DNA from: Synechococcus sp. M44_DOE_062
GTDB lineage: Bacteria; Cyanobacteriota; Cyanobacteriia; Thermostichales; Thermostichaceae
DNA length: 64,000 bases
Assembly (NCBI GenBank): GCA_015295985.1
Contig: DVDX01000024.1
Coordinates: forward strand, 62,001-126,000
Reading direction: 5' to 3'
Shown: one piece after another, positions 6,827 to 64,000 of the stretch
How positions within the stretch are numbered: position 1 is the first letter of the stretch
How the letters are laid out: every line of letters starts with the position of its first letter
Notes under the pieces: generated by a model
The model's database searches: none
The model's input: only the letters and a program-made list of their open reading frames with translations
What the model was told of the DNA's origin: nothing
Position numbers and translations under genes: made by a program

Positions 6827-7876
6827 ATGGCTTCTGCTCGTCCCCTCTTCCAGGCTGCCAAAAGGGATCTCGGAATCCGGCGAGACCTCGGCTTGGGTGT
6901 GGGGGCATTGGTGTGTGTGGTGCTGATCGGCACCCTCTGGTACCACGGGGTGGAGCAGTGGCCTTGGGTGGAGGCTTTTTACATGACGGTCATTACCCTA
7001 ACCACTGTTGGCTTTATGGAGGTGGAGCCGCTGGGGGATCGGGGGCGTTTGTTTACGGTGGCCTTGATCCTGATGGGGGTCTTGAGCATTGGGTTTATGG
7101 TGAATCGCTTTACGGAGGCCCTCATCCAGGGACATTTTCAGGAAGGGATCCGGCAACGGAAATGGAAGAAACAGATGGAAGCGCTGAACAACCACTACAT
7201 TATTTGCGGTTTCGGGCGCATTGGGCGGCAGGTGGCCCAAGAGTTTCAAGCAGAAGGGGTGCCATTTTTGGTGATCGATCAGTCTGCCGAGGCCATTCAG
7301 GTGGCTCAAGAGCTGGGATACGTGGCTCTCCAGGGGGATAGTACTCTAGATGCCACTTTGCTGGAAGCGCGGGTGCAGCAGGCAGAGGGGTTGATCGCTG
7401 CCCTATCTTCCGATGCTGAGAACTTGTATGTGGTCTTGTCGGCCCGCACCCTGAACCCCCGCATCCGCACCATTGCCCGCGCCAATACGGAAGAGGCTTT
7501 GCAAAAACTGCAGCGAGCGGGCGTTGCCCATGCCATTTCTCCCTACATCACGGGCGGAAAACGGATGGCGGCGGCTGCCCTGCGCCCACGGGTTGTGGAC
7601 TTTGTGGATGGCATCCTTGTCGGTCGGGATCGCACTTTTTACCTAGAGGAGTATGAGCTGGCAGCCCAAGAATGTCCTTATGTCGGGCAAACCCTGCGGA
7701 AAGCCGATTTGCGAAACCGATCCGGAGCTTTGGTGGTGGCAATCCGGCGGGCCGATGGTCAGTTGATCGGTGGCCCCAGTGGAGAAACCCTGTTGCAGCC
7801 GGGGGATCTGCTGCTGTGTATGGGCACTGCGGATCAGTTGCGTCGGCTTGGACAGTTGCTCTATCCACGCCCGTAG
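6827..7876 (+). CDS. Two-helix potassium channel with RCK (TrkA-N/TrkA-C) domain
   Basis: Ion channel of the MthK/Kch type, gated by cytoplasmic RCK domains. Residues 22-40 form the first membrane helix, then a pore helix and filter TTVGFMEV at 59-66, and a second helix at about 75-95. A Rossmann-type RCK domain follows (YIICGFGRIGRQVA from 124), then a TrkA-C domain over the last 100 residues (GALVVAIRRADGQLIGGP). The filter reads TVGF-MEV rather than the textbook TVGYGD; such variants occur in bacterial channels but selectivity is not assured. It lies divergent from the DUF2997-like gene. Confidence 0.85.
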   Translation: MASARPLFQAAKRDLGIRRDLGLGVGALVCVVLIGTLWYHGVEQWPWVEAFYMTVITLTTVGFMEVEPLGDRGRLFTVALILMGVLSIGFMVNRFTEALIQGHFQEGIRQRKWKKQMEALNNHYIICGFGRIGRQVAQEFQAEGVPFLVIDQSAEAIQVAQELGYVALQGDSTLDATLLEARVQQAEGLIAALSSDAENLYVVLSARTLNPRIRTIARANTEEALQKLQRAGVAHAISPYITGGKRMAAAALRPRVVDFVDGILVGRDRTFYLEEYELAAQECPYVGQTLRKADLRNRSGALVVAIRRADGQLIGGPSGETLLQPGDLLLCMGTADQLRRLGQLLYPRP

Positions 7877-7904
7877 CAGCCGTTCTCCACCTGGGTAGCC
7901 TGGC

Positions 7905-8573
7905 TCAAATCCGCCTCAAAATACTGGGGCCATGAGAGTCGGTGCCGCAGGTTTTCAAAAGTCCGTAGGTCTCGGCCAGCTCCTCGGCTTTCTCCGTCAC
8001 TTCCGGGCTAGGGAACCAAATCTCCGGGTTTTTGTAGGCGTAGTAGACCTCAAGGCCGTCTATTCCCAACTCCGCTGCTGCTGGGACGATTTCCTCTGCA
8101 GGCAGCCAATAGCGAAAGGGGTGGGCCAACACCGCCAAGCCTCCTGCCGCTTGAATGGCCTGAATTGCCTCAGCGGCGGACAAGCCGGGAACCTGCTCCC
8201 CTTGGGCAAAGGGATCCAGAACACCAGCGGTGGGATCGAAGCCGTAGCCGAGAATATGCACTTCACAGCCCAACAGGTTTGCGGTGATCTCGATCCCCGG
8301 CCACAGGATGGGGTCGTCGGGGCGATCCAAGTGGGCGCGTGCTTGTTTGTAGCCCTTCAGGGTGTGGTGATCGGTGATGGCCAATCCTTTTAGACCGTGC
8401 CGGCGCGCCTGCTCCGCGAGATCCACCGGATCCATCTGCCCATCGGAACAGCGGGTGTGCAGGTGAAAGTTGTACTGCAAGGGGCAAGAACGGGGGCCGA
8501 CCCTCTGCAGCACCTGCCGCAACTCCACAGCGGAAGCCACCCCACAGGGATCCCGTTCCAAGCTGACAACCAT
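7905..8573 (-). CDS. PHP-domain metal-dependent phosphoesterase
   Basis: Predicted phosphoesterase of the polymerase and histidinol phosphatase fold (TrpH/YciV-like), which uses a cluster of bound metals to cleave phosphate esters or nucleotides. From the ATG at 8573 the 222-residue protein has the first metal motif in FHLHTRCSDGQMDP, then ITDHHTLKGY, GIEI, a His in VLAHPF and the closing GTDSHGP, so the full set of PHP ligands is present. The frame extends 24 codons further upstream, but the shorter start places the CPLQYNFHLHT block at the usual distance. The substrate is not evident. Confidence 0.8.
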   Translation of the reverse strand: MVVSLERDPCGVASAVELRQVLQRVGPRSCPLQYNFHLHTRCSDGQMDPVDLAEQARRHGLKGLAITDHHTLKGYKQARAHLDRPDDPILWPGIEITANLLGCEVHILGYGFDPTAGVLDPFAQGEQVPGLSAAEAIQAIQAAGGLAVLAHPFRYWLPAEEIVPAAAELGIDGLEVYYAYKNPEIWFPSPEVTEKAEELAETYGLLKTCGTDSHGPSILRRI

Positions 8574-11182: not shown

Positions 11183-12376
11183 TCACATACCAAAAACTTC
11201 CTGCATGCTTAACAGCCGGGATCCCGCCAATCGTTGTAGCCAAGGGGTGAGAAACTCTCGGTTGGCCTTCTGTTGCTGGGGATCCTGAGTTTCCAGAGGA
11301 AAAGGGGCGAGGGCACGCAGGGCGGCAGTGGTGACGCAGAACATGGCTTTCTGGAAGCTCAAGCAGATTTTGACCCGCAGATCCTCCTCCCCACGCGGGC
11401 TGCGGCGGTAGTGTTCCCGCAAGCGAGGGGGCAAGTGCCGCATCATGTCCTGCATCAACAGGGTGGGTGGGATCCCAGCGCTCCCCACCGGCAGGGGATC
11501 GGCATACAGGGCCCCATAGGCAAAATCTGCCTGCTCATGCGGAATCTGACCAGCCTGGGCGTTGTAGGAAACCGTACCCATGAAGGGAAAAGAGCGGAAA
11601 AACACTGCTTCCACATAGGGGATGGCTGTATCCGGCAGGAAGGTCAGCCCTGCTGAGAGAGGAATGATCTCATAGCGCCGGCCCCAGATGCAGGGAGCAT
11701 AGGCGATGGGTTTGCCGGCAGCGGCCACCAGCCCTTGCTGAATGTGGGCCACTACCTCGGGGATGGTGAGGTGGGGTTCTGTCTCAGAGCGCTTGGACAG
11801 AGACAGGAAAATATCGCTCATCACCCGCCAGAACTGGCCCAAGCCGCTGTACATGGCCAGCATGCGCACCTGTTCCAGAGCAAAGTCGGGAAACAGGATC
11901 CCCAAGCCCTGCAAGAAGGGGTTAAAGCGGATTTTGGCTCGGATGGCGGCCTTGGCCCGTTGGACAAATTCGGGAGTATCCAGGTAGCGGTCTAGCCCCC
12001 CTCCCCCATGCCAGAGCATGGCCTTCATGCAGTATTCGGCAAACTCGTAGTTGATGCGGTCATGCCACAGGTAGCGCAGCCATTTGCCCAGGGTAATCTC
12101 GCCGTTGAAATACTTAAACGCCGGGAAGAGCTCCAAAAATTGGTGGTCGGCAATGAAAATCAAGTTGCGAGAATAGGCGTCCAGAACCTCTCCGTAGCTG
12201 TGCAGGATCCCAATCACCTCCAGGCGATGGATCTGTGAATCCGGCAAGAGGGCTCCCCCTGCCTCCAGACGCTGCAAAATCGGACTGATGCGCACCTGAT
12301 CCAGAGGATCCAGGCCCGCCAGGAAAAAATGGGAGAGCGGAAGAGAAGAGCCATCCCGTGGCAAGGTGAACGTCAT
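11183..12376 (-). CDS. CO2 hydration protein (CupB/ChpX-like)
   Basis: Specific subunit of the CO2-uptake form of NDH-1, thought to hydrate CO2 to bicarbonate at the thylakoid membrane using energy from electron flow. The 397 residues match the CupA/CupB family throughout (LRYLWHDRINYEFAEYCM, the WHGGGGLDRYLDTPEF block, APCIWGRRYEIIPLS). The ATG at 12376 is preferred over a TTG four codons upstream. It is the last gene of ndhF-ndhD-cup on the minus strand. No cupS follows, and the NdhF partner looks like the F4 type, so the constitutive CupB is favoured over inducible CupA; this is inference. Confidence 0.85.
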   Translation of the reverse strand: MTFTLPRDGSSLPLSHFFLAGLDPLDQVRISPILQRLEAGGALLPDSQIHRLEVIGILHSYGEVLDAYSRNLIFIADHQFLELFPAFKYFNGEITLGKWLRYLWHDRINYEFAEYCMKAMLWHGGGGLDRYLDTPEFVQRAKAAIRAKIRFNPFLQGLGILFPDFALEQVRMLAMYSGLGQFWRVMSDIFLSLSKRSETEPHLTIPEVVAHIQQGLVAAAGKPIAYAPCIWGRRYEIIPLSAGLTFLPDTAIPYVEAVFFRSFPFMGTVSYNAQAGQIPHEQADFAYGALYADPLPVGSAGIPPTLLMQDMMRHLPPRLREHYRRSPRGEEDLRVKICLSFQKAMFCVTTAALRALAPFPLETQDPQQQKANREFLTPWLQRLAGSRLLSMQEVFGM

Positions 12377-12466
12377 GAGAGGAGCCAACCAGATCCACAG
12401 CTTAGATCTACAGTTTGAGGCATCTAAGACAACAGCAAAAACAGCAGCGGCAAAGTCGAAGGCGCC

Positions 12467-13990
12467 TTAAGAGGAGTCACAGGCCATGAAACAGGTCAAC
12501 TTTCCAACCACACCTTCGGTGGCAGCCGCGCTGAGGGCCACAGATTTCGCCAGATCAGCCGTTGTGGGCTCGATCCAGTGTGTCGCCCAGGCTGGTTGTA
12601 GGCCCAGCACCACCACCAGTGTTGCCAAGACAACAGCCGGCAGCCGTTCCCTCACCTGTTGCCGCGACATAGCTGTGGCCACTTCCGACAGCCGACCAAA
12701 AAAGACGCGGTTCACCATCAGCAGGAAATAGGCTGCCGTCAACCCTGTCCCCATCATGCACAACAAGGTCTGCAGCGGAAACACGGGGAAGCTGCCCCGA
12801 AAGATGGTGAACTCGGCGATAAAGCCCACCATGCCGGGCGTACCGCCGCTGGCCATCACCCCCAGCACCATTAAGCTACCAATCAATGGCAAGCCCCGCT
12901 CTGGGTTAAGCAACCCTTGCAGCAACCTCAGATCCCGCGTGCCGGTGTTGGTGTAGACGGCTCCCACCAGCAGAAACAACAGCGCCGAGATCAGGCCGTG
13001 GCTGACCATCTGGAAGACGGATCCCACCAGGGATAGAGGGGTTGCCGCTGCCGTCGCCAAGAGAATGTAGCCCATGTGGGCAATGGAGCTGTAGGCCACC
13101 AGCTTTTTCATGTCCTGCTGCACCAGGGCGTCCAGGGATCCATACAGCACGTTGACCACCGCCCAACCGGCCAGCCAAGGCCCTGCCTGTTCCCAAGCAT
13201 CCGGCAAGAGCTGCAGGCCAAAGCGCAACAGGCCGTAGGTGCCCAACTTCAAAAGCAGACCCGCCAGCAACACGGAAATGGGGGTGGAAGCCTCCACATG
13301 GGCATCCGGCAGCCAGGTGTGGAAGGGAACCAAGGGGATCTTGATGGCCAACCCCAGCAGAATGGGAACAAGCAACAGGGTTTGTTGCACCAGGGGCAAG
13401 GGGTGAGCCTGCAGGACGGTATAGGTAAAGCTGTGGGCATCGCTCAGCCAACTGAGGCCGAAAAAGCCTATCAACAGTAGGATCCCTGACAGAGCCGTGT
13501 AAATCAAGAACTTGGTGGCTGCATAGGTGCGCTGTGGCCCTCCCCAGATGGCGATGAGCAAATACAGGGGGATCAGCTCCACTTCATAGAACAGGAAAAA
13601 CAGCAGCAAATTCTGAGCCAAAAAAGCTCCGGCCACTGCTGCCGCCAGCATAAGCACCAAGCTGTAGTAGAGGCGGGGCCGCTCCACCTGGCCGCTGGCC
13701 CAAATGGCCATCAGCACCAGCAGCCCGGTCATCACCACCAAAGGCAGGGAGATCCCATCGACCCCCAACTCGTAAACCAAGCCCAACTGGGGGATCCAGG
13801 CCATCGTTTCCGCCAATTGCAGGGATCCCAGATGCGGGTCAAAGGCCAGCAACAGCCCCGCGCTCAGGCCAAACAAGACCCACCCAAACCCCAAAGCCAA
13901 CCTCCGATGGATGCTCTTCCCCGCTCGCTCGGGAATCAACCCAATCCAGATGCTCCCCAACAACGGGATCCCGATCAAAAGGCTCAACAT
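12467..13990 (-). CDS. ndhD: NAD(P)H-quinone oxidoreductase subunit 4 (NdhD4-like)
   Basis: Antiporter-like membrane subunit of the NDH-1 CO2-uptake complex. The 507 residues form about 14 hydrophobic helices of the proton-translocating Nuo/Mrp family; conserved pieces include ELIPLYLLIAIWGG, the Lys-bearing helix in KIPLVPFHTWLPDAHVEA and YSSIAHMGYILL. It lies between ndhF (12 bases upstream) and the cup gene, the arrangement of CO2-uptake operons rather than of the respiratory ndhD1. Assignment to D4 instead of D3 rests on the absence of cupS and the NdhF partner. Confidence 0.88.
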   Translation of the reverse strand: MLSLLIGIPLLGSIWIGLIPERAGKSIHRRLALGFGWVLFGLSAGLLLAFDPHLGSLQLAETMAWIPQLGLVYELGVDGISLPLVVMTGLLVLMAIWASGQVERPRLYYSLVLMLAAAVAGAFLAQNLLLFFLFYEVELIPLYLLIAIWGGPQRTYAATKFLIYTALSGILLLIGFFGLSWLSDAHSFTYTVLQAHPLPLVQQTLLLVPILLGLAIKIPLVPFHTWLPDAHVEASTPISVLLAGLLLKLGTYGLLRFGLQLLPDAWEQAGPWLAGWAVVNVLYGSLDALVQQDMKKLVAYSSIAHMGYILLATAAATPLSLVGSVFQMVSHGLISALLFLLVGAVYTNTGTRDLRLLQGLLNPERGLPLIGSLMVLGVMASGGTPGMVGFIAEFTIFRGSFPVFPLQTLLCMMGTGLTAAYFLLMVNRVFFGRLSEVATAMSRQQVRERLPAVVLATLVVVLGLQPAWATHWIEPTTADLAKSVALSAAATEGVVGKLTCFMACDSS

Positions 13991-43119: not shown

Positions 43120-43191
43120 GGGCCGAGTCCAAGCTGAAGGTTGCTCACAGGGGAAGGATAGAGTGGGTTGAGGGTTGCCAGTAGGCCAAAG

Positions 43192-44172
43192 ATGAAGGAT
43201 CCCCGACCTGCCCAGGCTCGACAGACTCAACCGAGGGGCCCTGCTCCCAGTCTCAGCCATCTGGTGGCGCAATTTTTGCAGGAGCGGGAGCGGGATCTGG
43301 CCCCAGCCAGTCGCCGTACCTACTGCATTGCTCTAGAGCAGTTTGCCAAAACTTGCCCGGTGCCGCTGCCCCAGGTGCAGCCCGCCCACGTCCAGTCCTT
43401 TTTGAACAGTTTGAAAGGGCGACCGTTCCAAAGCCGCTCCGGCCAGTGGATCCATCCGCCTGCTTCTCCAGCCACCTACAACCTCAAGCGGTTGGCCTTG
43501 CAGCAATTTTTTGAATGGGCCAGCCAACGGGGCTACCTTCAGGATCCCCTGCCCACCCAAGCCATTCGACCTGCTCGCCTGCCCGCTCGTTTGCCTCGCG
43601 ATCTGGATCGGTTGTTGCTGCAGCGGGTGTTGCAGCGGGCCCAAAACCATTCTCTGCGCTATGCGGCTTTGATTCGCCTGATGCTGGAGTGCGGGCTGCG
43701 GGCCCAGGAGCTGTTGGACTTAACCGTTCAAGATTTTCAAATCAGCCCTGAGGGATCCCTGTTGGAAGTGCGCTGTGGCAAGGGGAGTAAACCCCGCGCC
43801 GTGGCAGTAGGGGATCCCCTCTCCGAGCTGTTGCAGCAGTATCTGAGCCAAGAACGGGGCCCGTGCGCGCCGACGGATCCCTTGTTTGTCTCCCAATCGC
43901 GCTGCTTGGCCTACCGAGGCCGTCCCCTCACCTACGATGGCCTGCGGCATATTGTGCTCAAGCTCACCGAGCCTGAGCCGGGACATCAAACCCCCCACCA
44001 GTTTCGCCACAGTTTTGCCACCTTGTTGCTGGATCGCGGCCTTGCCCCCGAACACATTCAGCACTTGCTGGGCCATACGACTGCCGCCATGACAATGCGC
44101 TACACTCAGCGGGCCAATCTAAGGGCAGCCATTGCCCATTCCCGCGAGATCTTGAATCAGGGCTTGGTTTAG
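43192..44172 (+). CDS. XerC/XerD-type tyrosine recombinase
   Basis: Site-specific recombinase of 326 residues. The N-terminal SAM-like domain (about 20-115, FLQERERDLAPASRRTYCIA) is followed by the catalytic domain with Arg in LMLECGLRAQELLDL, Lys in VRCGKGSKPR, the His-x-x-Arg of TPHQFRHSFATLLL, the second His in HLLGHTTAAMTMRYT and the Tyr nucleophile in MRYTQ. It may be a chromosomal Xer protein resolving dimers or an integrase left by a mobile element. The J-domain/HNH pair lies just downstream on the other strand. The ATG is preferred over a TTG eight codons upstream. Confidence 0.87.
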   Translation: MKDPRPAQARQTQPRGPAPSLSHLVAQFLQERERDLAPASRRTYCIALEQFAKTCPVPLPQVQPAHVQSFLNSLKGRPFQSRSGQWIHPPASPATYNLKRLALQQFFEWASQRGYLQDPLPTQAIRPARLPARLPRDLDRLLLQRVLQRAQNHSLRYAALIRLMLECGLRAQELLDLTVQDFQISPEGSLLEVRCGKGSKPRAVAVGDPLSELLQQYLSQERGPCAPTDPLFVSQSRCLAYRGRPLTYDGLRHIVLKLTEPEPGHQTPHQFRHSFATLLLDRGLAPEHIQHLLGHTTAAMTMRYTQRANLRAAIAHSREILNQGLV

Positions 44173-44336: not shown

Positions 44337-45350
44337 TCAAGTTACACGCTCGAGAGGAATGTAGAGCACATGCTCTCTCCCCTTGCCAATGGGCAACTGC
44401 TGACCAAGGCTGGCCTTCTGTTGTTCCAACCAGATGATCAGGTTTTTGTTCTCAGGATAGTATTCCAAAACATACTTGATGAAGTCATCAATTGTACATG
44501 GCTCGTTGAAACCTCCCATCCACTGATGAAAGTGGCTATGCACTTCGCTGGCTATAGTAATCAGGTTGGAGAGATTTGCTGCAAGCTTTGGATAGTGCGC
44601 TTCAGAGTAGAGATGGTGAACCGTTAGGCTACTGGCTGCTTTTCGAGTAACTCTACAGAGATTTTTATCCCTTCTCCTTGCAAGCTCTTTTGCTCTTTCT
44701 ATCTGCTTTTGTCGATCCTGGATTGTCTTGACGATTGCCTGAATCTGAGGTTCAATGCATTCGCCAACATCTCGACACCAGTCTTTTCTGTGGTTTTGCT
44801 TGAGGACTTCTACCATAATCTTAGCAAGCTCATAAACGCCTCGCAAAGAGAGGTAGACAGTTTCGTCGTTGCCAAAGCGTGTGTAATGAACGTCTTTGAT
44901 GAGTTTACTTTGTTTTGATGCAATCTCAAGTGCTTTCTTAAGGTAGTCAGTTCGAGTTCCAAAGATCGTCACAACATCTCGAAGAGATAGCCAAAACTGA
45001 TCTTGTCTTCTGACCAAAGAGGAGCTGTTTTCGAGGATCCTATGATCCACCAGAGCTTTCTGCTTCTTGCGATGCTCTTCCTTGAACCAACTCCTAATGC
45101 TTGTATCTGTAGAGTACTTACGACCTTGCTCTGATCTAGACCTTAAAAAGGATAAAATGGCGTAAGCACCAGACTGCGTGTATTCTCTCAGCCCCGAACT
45201 TCTGTTGATAACACGATAGTCTTTACCTTCCACCAGTTCCCACTCATCATCAGGGATACTGTCAAAGTAGGCTTCAATCTCCCTGAGTTCCTCGAGGCTG
45301 ATACCCAAAAATTCGGCGAGCTTGTTTGAAGAAACATAGACTATAGCCAT
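44337..45350 (-). CDS. HNH-nuclease-like protein paired with a J-domain protein
   Basis: A 337-residue protein. Residues 228-275 look like an HNH (beta-beta-metal) nuclease: Cys232, the HH pair 245-246 in LTVHHLYSE, Asn 259/262 in ANLSNLI and His 271/273 in EVHSHFHQW. The first 190 residues are helical, with two similar-looking stretches (YTQSGAYAILSF and YLSLRGVYELAKI), perhaps DNA-binding or antirepressor-like. The ATG lies inside the end of the J-domain gene (ATGGCTATAG overlap), so the two are coupled. Base composition is AT-richer than the neighbours, suggesting transfer. Function unknown; a defence or mobile-element role is inference. Confidence 0.7.
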   Translation of the reverse strand: MAIVYVSSNKLAEFLGISLEELREIEAYFDSIPDDEWELVEGKDYRVINRSSGLREYTQSGAYAILSFLRSRSEQGRKYSTDTSIRSWFKEEHRKKQKALVDHRILENSSSLVRRQDQFWLSLRDVVTIFGTRTDYLKKALEIASKQSKLIKDVHYTRFGNDETVYLSLRGVYELAKIMVEVLKQNHRKDWCRDVGECIEPQIQAIVKTIQDRQKQIERAKELARRRDKNLCRVTRKAASSLTVHHLYSEAHYPKLAANLSNLITIASEVHSHFHQWMGGFNEPCTIDDFIKYVLEYYPENKNLIIWLEQQKASLGQQLPIGKGREHVLYIPLERVT

Positions 45351-45943
45351 TGCTCAAATTTCTCCGTAAGGCTTTTGTAGAAGAGGGTCAACCGCTGGAA
45401 AATCTTTTCATCCCCGGTTGGAGAATCGGGATGGTAGATCTTGCTCAGGCGATAAAAAGCAGCTTTGATGTCTTCATTGGTAGCTCGATCAGGGTCAAGT
45501 CCAAAAACCCGCCATGGCAAGTCGTACTTGAAGATGTTGACCCCGTTGATGCAGCCATACCCCTCTTCCCCCTCTTCGTTGGGAAGGATCCCGATGTGCT
45601 GACGATAAATGCGCTCCAAGTCGTCTATGTTGGATAAGCTCAGCTTGCCCATGCCGCTGGTTGCCAGTTTGAAGCTGGCTGACTTTCTCAGCTCGGCTGC
45701 GTTTCTAACACCAAAGTGGTTGTAAATCGCTTTCTGCAGCTCTTTGACAGACAACCGAGGCGGTGGCTGTAGCTGCCTGACCACAAACCGCGCAAAATTC
45801 TCCAGGAGTTCCTTAGAGATGCCGTAGGTATCCGAAAGGCGCTGGATTTCTGCAGCAATCGCCCCTTGCGGATCGGGCTTGGTCTTCTCACTTGAGGTTG
45901 CCCTGGTTGTTTTTGGTTTTGTGCTGGCGGCTTTTTTGGACAT
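45341..45943 (-). CDS. Protein with C-terminal J domain (DnaJ-like co-chaperone)
   Basis: A 200-residue protein. The N-terminus is basic and Thr/Ser/Lys-rich (MSKKAASTKPKTTRATSS), followed by a helical central region (about 28-120). The last 60 residues form a J domain in which the diagnostic His-Pro-Asp is intact (KIYHPDSPTG, 171-173), preceded by YDLPWRVFGLD and FYRLSKIY. J domains stimulate DnaK ATPase and recruit it to clients; at the C-terminus this suggests a dedicated recruiter rather than a general DnaJ. It has a good Shine-Dalgarno (GGGGAAG) and overlaps the HNH-like gene by 10 bases. Confidence 0.8.
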   Translation of the reverse strand: MSKKAASTKPKTTRATSSEKTKPDPQGAIAAEIQRLSDTYGISKELLENFARFVVRQLQPPPRLSVKELQKAIYNHFGVRNAAELRKSASFKLATSGMGKLSLSNIDDLERIYRQHIGILPNEEGEEGYGCINGVNIFKYDLPWRVFGLDPDRATNEDIKAAFYRLSKIYHPDSPTGDEKIFQRLTLFYKSLTEKFEQWL

Positions 45944-63742: not shown

Positions 63743-64000
63743 ATGGGCAAGGTTTTGGTTTTGAATGCCTCCTACGAGCCGCTCAACATCACCAGTTGGC
63801 GCAGAGCGGTCGTTCTTTTGCTCAAGGGCAAGGCCGAGCAAATCGAGCACAATGGCCGAGTGGTGTACGGCAACATTCCTTTGCCCACCGTCATTCGCCT
63901 GCGCCACTATGTCCACGTTCCCCATAAGGAGATCCCGCTCACGCGCCGCAACGTCCTCTACCGGGATGGGCACCGTTGTCAGTACTGCGGCTGCTTCGGC
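63743..64000 (+). CDS. HNH endonuclease, 5' part
   Basis: 86 codons are visible before the window edge. The start MGKVLVLNASYEPLNITSWRR, then AVVLLLKGKAEQIEHNGR and the last visible DGHRCQYCGCFG form the N-terminal part and first Cys pair of the cyanobacterial HNH endonuclease type of about 165 residues; the HNH motif itself must lie past the edge. The function is unclear; it is often a conserved housekeeping gene in cyanobacteria. Confidence 0.85.
   Translation, partial: MGKVLVLNASYEPLNITSWRRAVVLLLKGKAEQIEHNGRVVYGNIPLPTVIRLRHYVHVPHKEIPLTRRNVLYRDGHRCQYCGCFG

Follow-up and report, generated by a model that had tools for sequence, protein, structure and literature searches.

A paired J-domain and HNH-nuclease-like gene module in cyanobacteria with a possible role in genetic conflict

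Chaperone-linked defence and HNH effectors are each already known. The toxin-antitoxin-chaperone system CmdTAC has a demonstrated antiphage role (PMC11618068), and bNACHT25, an antiphage protein of E. coli, cannot sense phage without DnaJ and the contact that DnaJ makes with DnaK (PMC12169576). Conflict systems around the GAP1-N2 GTPase have been predicted that include a DnaJ domain and HSP70 (PMC7159879), and packaging with injection has been predicted for the polyvalent proteins of phages (PMC5512222). In E. coli the J gene cbpA (1062855-1063775) overlaps the next gene, cbpM (1062550-1062855), which encodes a small, MerR-like protein able to bind the J domain (PMC4063869). The locus described here combines a J-domain protein with an HNH-type protein. 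For this combination, which the initial annotation had called outside the textbook, Pfam, NCBIfam, PHROGs, PADLOC 2.0.0 and the literature searched gave no matching system. Assignment to a known antiphage system of PADLOC 2.0.0 was rejected, as the two genes do not match the models of any one system.

The pair lies in a 64,000-nt stretch of cyanobacterial DNA (genome G000), the whole of which is referred to as the window. Both open reading frames occupy the positions on the minus strand where they had been placed from the outset (Table 1). The ATG of the HNH gene falls within the stop region of the J gene, which confirms the overlap first described, and translational coupling across it would be expected. 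Across homologous loci the distance from the J stop to the HNH start usually lies between -37 and +14 nt, and a few loci are spaced more widely (38-101 nt). The pair is also AT-richer than its surroundings, as had been claimed, with a GC content of 46.9% where the window as a whole has 57.4%; of 312 sliding windows as long as the pair, just 7 reach so low a value.

Table 1 Positions of the paired genes, their predicted domains and the adjoining recombinase gene in the window.
Feature	Position	Strand	Description and basis
J gene	45341-45943	minus	200 aa, ATG start; open reading frame; first gene of pair
HNH gene	44337-45350	minus	337 aa; open reading frame; second gene of pair; tandem winged-helix/HNH protein
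Gene overlap ATGGCTATAG	45341-45350	minus	10 nt; from sequence
J-protein N-terminal helical region, residues ~25-142	45518-45871	minus	Model, conservation; holds invariant NG 133-134
J domain, residues ~143-199	45347-45517	minus	Pfam; model helices 156-170, 179-199
HPD motif, residues 171-173	45425-45433	minus	Sequence; invariant in J alignment A2
Winged-helix-like domain 1, residues 1-76	45123-45350	minus	Model; profile match to domain 2
Winged-helix-like domain 2, Bro-N-like, residues 112-186	44793-45017	minus	PF02498 sub-threshold; model; profile match to domain 1
HNH core, residues ~228-290 (C232, T235, H245, H246, N262, H271, H275, C285)	44481-44669	minus	phrog_119/phrog_144, conservation, model
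Tyrosine recombinase (Xer-type)	43168-44172	plus	Adjoins pair

The adjacency of a Xer-type recombinase, as noted at the outset, is real, but the gene is unrelated to the module. A Xer-like gene is present in 8/8 genomes of the family that were searched, at other positions and including five genomes without the module, and its adjacency to the pair is common to the three module-bearing congeners. As a core gene that also sits at module-free loci, the recombinase is therefore not part of the module, and its proximity reflects local gene order. Congeners that lack the module show rearrangement at its locus, and a dedicated empty site was not obtained for the genus of the window. The recombinase gene itself is found at differing loci in congeners, with strong gene-order shuffling in the genus.

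The J domain proposed at the C-terminus of the first protein, with its intact HPD, stands. PF00226 matches residues 145-194 above the Pfam cut-off (E 3.2e-7; 30.8 bits compared to 27.8) and is matched by 28/28 family members, and the HPD, the motif that stimulates Hsp70, is present in every full-length J homologue aligned. Besides the HPD, the invariant residues in the alignment are NG 133-134, R114, E123, G128 and P143. The AlphaFold2 model (pLDDT 82) places helices at residues 25-40, 44-58, 66-77, 82-87, 89-94 and 106-117 of the N-terminal region, and a Foldseek search of this model against the PDB retrieves the J domains of Sis1, DnaJA1 and DnaJ (probability 1.00, E 0.04-0.2). The N-terminal region gave no Pfam match, DnaJ being the only Pfam family common to the members, and the protein gave no match to the PADLOC 2.0.0 models. 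In one genome (G135; L083, 7434-8099) a portion of the N-terminal region seems to occur twice in the J gene.

The second protein matches the phage families phrog_119, annotated as 'HNH endonuclease' (E 3.6e-8, spanning residues 128-286 from the second winged-helix domain to the HNH), and phrog_144 (E 1.7e-6). When E values up to 1 are allowed, 9/26 family members match Pfam HNH_2, the best with 2.9e-4, the window protein itself giving no match to HNH_2, and the PADLOC model REase_II for type II restriction enzymes matches weakly (E 3e-5). In an alignment of 42 rows the near-invariant positions are C232 (41/42), T235, H245 (42/42), H246 (42/42), N262 (41/42), H271 (40/42), H275 (41/42) and C285. 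Most of the HNH residues first proposed (C232, H245/H246, N262, H271) are conserved; His273 is not, as residue 273 is variable and mostly Glu, and the conserved histidine is His275. The AlphaFold2 model, built on 11 aligned sequences and of moderate quality (pLDDT 75.7, pTM 0.47), does contain the HNH-like core first proposed, with strands 242-246 and 263-267 and helix 268-278 forming a strand-strand-helix core. Judged from alignment and model, the protein thus has the core, the HH/N/H residues and the metal-site residues of an HNH nuclease, and cleavage itself is predicted.

Ahead of this core, the model shows a helix-helix-strand-strand-helix arrangement at residues 8-72 and again at 118-182, each followed by a long helix; in the first, helices span 8-15 and 19-31, strands 45-49 and 54-57, and a further helix 59-72. 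The two segments match each other in profile-profile comparison (probability 94, E 1.2e-7) and neither matches the HNH segment; they therefore represent a duplicated winged-helix-like domain in front of the nuclease. A match to Bro-N (PF02498; E 0.002, 19.2 bits compared to a cut-off of 25.6) remains below the Pfam threshold and membership in the BRO/antirepressor family was rejected on this basis. Foldseek found no significant match of the whole HNH model in the PDB, where only weak winged-helix matches of MerR, RacA and MarR type appeared; among viral models, the matches are antirepressor, KilA-N and HNH proteins. A second phrog_119-like HNH segment is present at 63923-64000 of the window (G000:C10:125923-126111, plus strand) and extends past its edge.

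When profiles of each protein were compared with 386 Cyanobacteriota genomes, 30 full-length HNH loci were found in 28/386 genomes, and the J gene lies directly upstream on the same strand in 30/30 of them. J loci number 32 full-length and one truncated; full-length J genes without HNH occur in two genomes (G022 and G121), and HNH without J occurs as fragments only (G080, G221 and G237). Within the picocyanobacterial family, 29 of 151 genomes have the J gene and the HNH gene adjoins it in 27 of these 29 (24/26 newly fetched loci plus G304, G314 and G276), while the two exceptions are a J protein resembling viral ones (G485) and a fragment (G428). Pairing is far beyond chance and supports the view of an obligate pair, with overlapping genes that would be translationally coupled. 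Only J and HNH recur across the module neighbourhoods compared, and a third conserved neighbour gene was not found at module loci. One genome (G157) has a J-gene relative beside dnaK; this gene, which has lost both the J domain and HNH, lies just upstream of dnaK (L073, 6970-7389) and is probably a deletion remnant. The survey covered Cyanobacteriota together with one contig scan of all phyla using single-sequence patterns, in which matches were in cyanobacteria only; the pair may exist elsewhere.

Both genes are under purifying selection. Pairwise dN/dS is mostly 0.08-0.23 (0.18-0.23 for the HNH gene among three congeners), and the two values above this range belong to the pair L085/L103, with 0.26 for J, where changes are very few, and 0.48 for HNH, where the pair is recombinant. 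The distance matrices of J and HNH are correlated (Mantel r 0.77; 0/2000 permutations as high), which is consistent with co-inheritance, shared ancestry alone also contributing. Constraint of this kind, together with a chromosomal location and plasmids without matches, could point to host housekeeping, for instance in DNA repair, or with the J protein and a DNA-binding nuclease regulating a response to heat shock or to DNA structure, but with presence in only 28/386 genomes, absence from close congeners, variable islands and domain exchange, a patchy, island-borne, domain-swapping module does not resemble a core function, so this role is very improbable.

The pair is patchy and moves between loci as one unit. 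In the family of the window the module is present in 3/8 genomes and missing from close congeners. Two modules of the same genus (L085 and L086) share 89-100% identity per 90-bp window with unrelated flanks, and another two loci (L088 and L095) have just 1.74 kb in common, a stretch that begins 115 nt before J and ends 9 nt past the HNH stop. Module loci are unrelated between genera, with one locus shared within the picocyanobacteria and variable in sister genomes. There, the left flank and module are common to several species, while homology goes no further than the HNH stop codon, after which the cargo differs; one sister genome (G489) has 180 bp in place of an entire 6.4-kb stretch and another (G474) has other cargo at the site. 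The pair forms the left edge of a variable accessory island in these genomes (L001-L010, L098, L099), which is empty or holds other cargo in L220 and L221, cargo turnover beginning at the HNH stop codon. A convergent gene lies directly 3' of HNH at six loci in several lineages (L001, L002, L005, L098, L088, L094), encoding predicted RNases of NYN/LabA type or similar, of differing families; NYN Pfam matches number 4 among 132 neighbour genes. tRNA-linked integration was rejected, as no tRNA was found in the 38 loci scanned, with a tmRNA at one. An origin from plasmids or isolated phages was likewise rejected after tblastn: the HNH protein had no match in 72,556 plasmids and 50,697 phage records, the window J protein none in the same plasmids, and one picocyanobacterial J protein none in the phage records.

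Exchange also takes place inside the module. Between L085 and L103, with flanks 96-100% identical, dS is 0.74 for HNH residues 1-75 and about 0-0.16 for the rest of the gene, and between L084 and L100 the HNH gene has a dS above 1 compared to 0.32 for J. Domain 1 or the whole HNH gene has thus been swapped while J was retained. Shifting selection on target choice would be expected to leave such a pattern, which recombination without selection may also produce.

Our best explanation, a tentative one, is a horizontally moving two-gene conflict module in which a DNase of HNH type is gated by the J protein and Hsp70, most likely directed against phages or plasmids. J proteins hand clients to Hsp70, so binding of the nuclease by J and remodelling by Hsp70 would be the simplest model; the binding of CbpM to a J domain and the reliance of bNACHT25 on DnaJ and DnaK offer concrete precedents for it. 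The two tandem winged-helix domains would choose or hold DNA, and the dedicated co-chaperone would bind the nuclease through its N-terminal region or its J domain and bring in host DnaK/Hsp70. Hsp70 would alter the fold or oligomeric state of the nuclease, either holding it inactive or remodelling it to an active form, and coupled translation would ensure that the nuclease is never produced without its J partner. Infection could then load the chaperones or deliver a competing J module, tipping the balance and releasing the nuclease on invading or host DNA. That full-length HNH is never seen without J fits a restraining J protein as well as an activating one. Contact between the proteins and recruitment of Hsp70 are what we infer, as are cleavage of DNA, the trigger and a role in defence. 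In a plain count of neighbouring genes, a recurrent defence family was not found around the module among the first 25 of 91 PADLOC families. The earlier suggestion of a defence, toxin-control or element-maintenance module holds in that this is a mobile, conflict-type module unmatched in the libraries and literature searched; which of the three roles applies we infer.

The main rival is a selfish homing-type cassette, because the cassette moves and the cargo boundary lies at the HNH stop. The HNH protein would cut cassette-less alleles, recombination would copy the cassette in, and J would aid folding or loading; neighbouring cargo would turn over since cutting and repair go no further than the HNH gene. 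The HNH protein is closest to phage HNH endonuclease families, and almost identical modules sit at unrelated loci, their homology breaking off near the HNH stop codon. Both speak for such a cassette, and movement with exchange at the HNH boundary would fit a selfish endonuclease too. In phages, nuclease genes have been described at boundaries of genetic exchange (PMC10448857). However, neighbourhoods are unrelated between genera, without the conserved cognate insertion site of a homing endonuclease, HNH relatives were not found in the phages, plasmids and viral contigs searched, and J is as conserved as the nuclease. To our knowledge, free-standing homing genes need no J partner. A homing cassette, including its account of cargo turnover, is unlikely.

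A toxin-antidote addiction pair serving its own maintenance would have J and Hsp70 keep a toxic nuclease from folding or acting, and a cell that loses the pair would be left with the nuclease set free. The antidote-first gene order with overlap agrees with this, as does the survival of J alone where the full-length nuclease never occurs without J, though these orphan counts (2 vs 0) are too few for significance. In TAC systems a chaperone can form part of the antidote (PMC11618068, PMC9098466). The order of the genes fits a type II toxin-antitoxin system, the toxicity of the second gene being putative, but the pair differs from small type II toxins in protein length (200 and 337 aa) and in its tandem DNA-recognition domains, and we regard this reading as distinctly doubtful.

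Viruses provide a further line of evidence. In all, 27 contigs of uncultured viruses contain the J module, and among the matches listed no HNH gene lies beside it; HNH relatives were not found in the viral contigs searched. While cellular copies of the two genes are not regularly separate, as a linked pair would have it, the presence of the J module in viral polyvalent proteins without HNH means that the J half is not exclusive to the nuclease. The viral J-bearing proteins are long, with LPD1 (polyvalent-protein-associated) or Zeta-toxin domains, the gene following one of them is MuF-like (L143), and other viral contexts look like head-tail gene clusters; they are predicted to be virion-delivered polyvalent proteins. 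Within L141-L167, J modules sit inside large polyvalent or virion-region proteins (e.g. L142:2673-5471, L161:4518-6635 and L163:4377-5537), many of which have a repeated CxTGYxCGxxCI cysteine motif. The top identity between viral and picocyanobacterial J is 62%, and in the tree the viral modules nest within picocyanobacterial J, with L141 and L161 beside Cyanobium-type J (94/95); the tree is midpoint-rooted and does not prove the direction of transfer. The viruses with J copies apparently infect related cyanobacteria, and the J protein of one picocyanobacterial assembly (G485), related to the viral ones, ties the virus group to picocyanobacterial hosts, though it may stem from a phage contig that was binned with the metagenome assembly. 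If the pair were chaperone-gated nuclease immunity of a kind not represented in the libraries searched, cyanophages might counter it with a virion-delivered polyvalent J-module copy, as decoy or replacement antidote, a scenario that we consider speculative and rather unlikely.

Should a chaperone-gated conflict module be correct, immune nucleases would be under a private Hsp70 co-chaperone, directly linking proteostasis and DNA defence, a link with few cases so far (bNACHT25 with DnaJ, CmdTAC with a SecB-like chaperone). A tandem winged-helix/HNH protein with an exchangeable first domain would represent a modular DNA-targeting nuclease, and in the J copies of viruses there would be a new route of counter-defence as well as a ready handle for experiments. 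Even in a selfish cassette, an obligate J partner for an endonuclease would be unusual.

Compared to described systems, the HNH protein shares its core and residue pattern with phage HNH endonucleases (phrog_119, phrog_144) and HNH_2, but differs from the phage enzymes in its two tandem winged-helix-like domains, its obligate J partner and its cellular, chromosomal site. Type II restriction-modification was rejected as the general case, there being no dedicated methyltransferase beside the nuclease: an m5C methylase lies beside the module in one genome only (G131), the single such locus in the neighbour scan, and a search for m5C methylases in congeners G177 and G388 and in G276 found none. 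At the G131 locus (L096) the module lies between an m5C methylase and a second copy of it that is nearly identical but broken (7075-8181 and 11702-12767). With the viral J modules, phage polyvalent proteins (PMC5512222) have in common LPD1 or Zeta-toxin domains and the MuF neighbour, although the main text of that study is without DnaJ and the cellular J-HNH pair itself is not a polyvalent protein. The GAP1-N2 systems have another effector and architecture, and the HNH pair is not described there (PMC7159879). bNACHT25, which is NLR-related, relies on housekeeping DnaJ and has neither a dedicated J gene nor an HNH protein. The likeness to CbpA-CbpM lies in a J gene with an overlapping downstream gene, and CbpM is among the weak Foldseek matches of the HNH model (probability 0.47, E 0.94); CbpM is without a nuclease, unlike the HNH protein, and homology between the two was rejected (hhalign probability 2.5), leaving a structural lead only. 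TAC systems including CmdTAC resemble the pair in coupling a chaperone to a harmful enzyme, but they use a SecB-like chaperone and a separate antitoxin, whereas the module described here, with two genes and no third conserved neighbour, was not counted among them and brings a J-domain protein to the putative nuclease instead.
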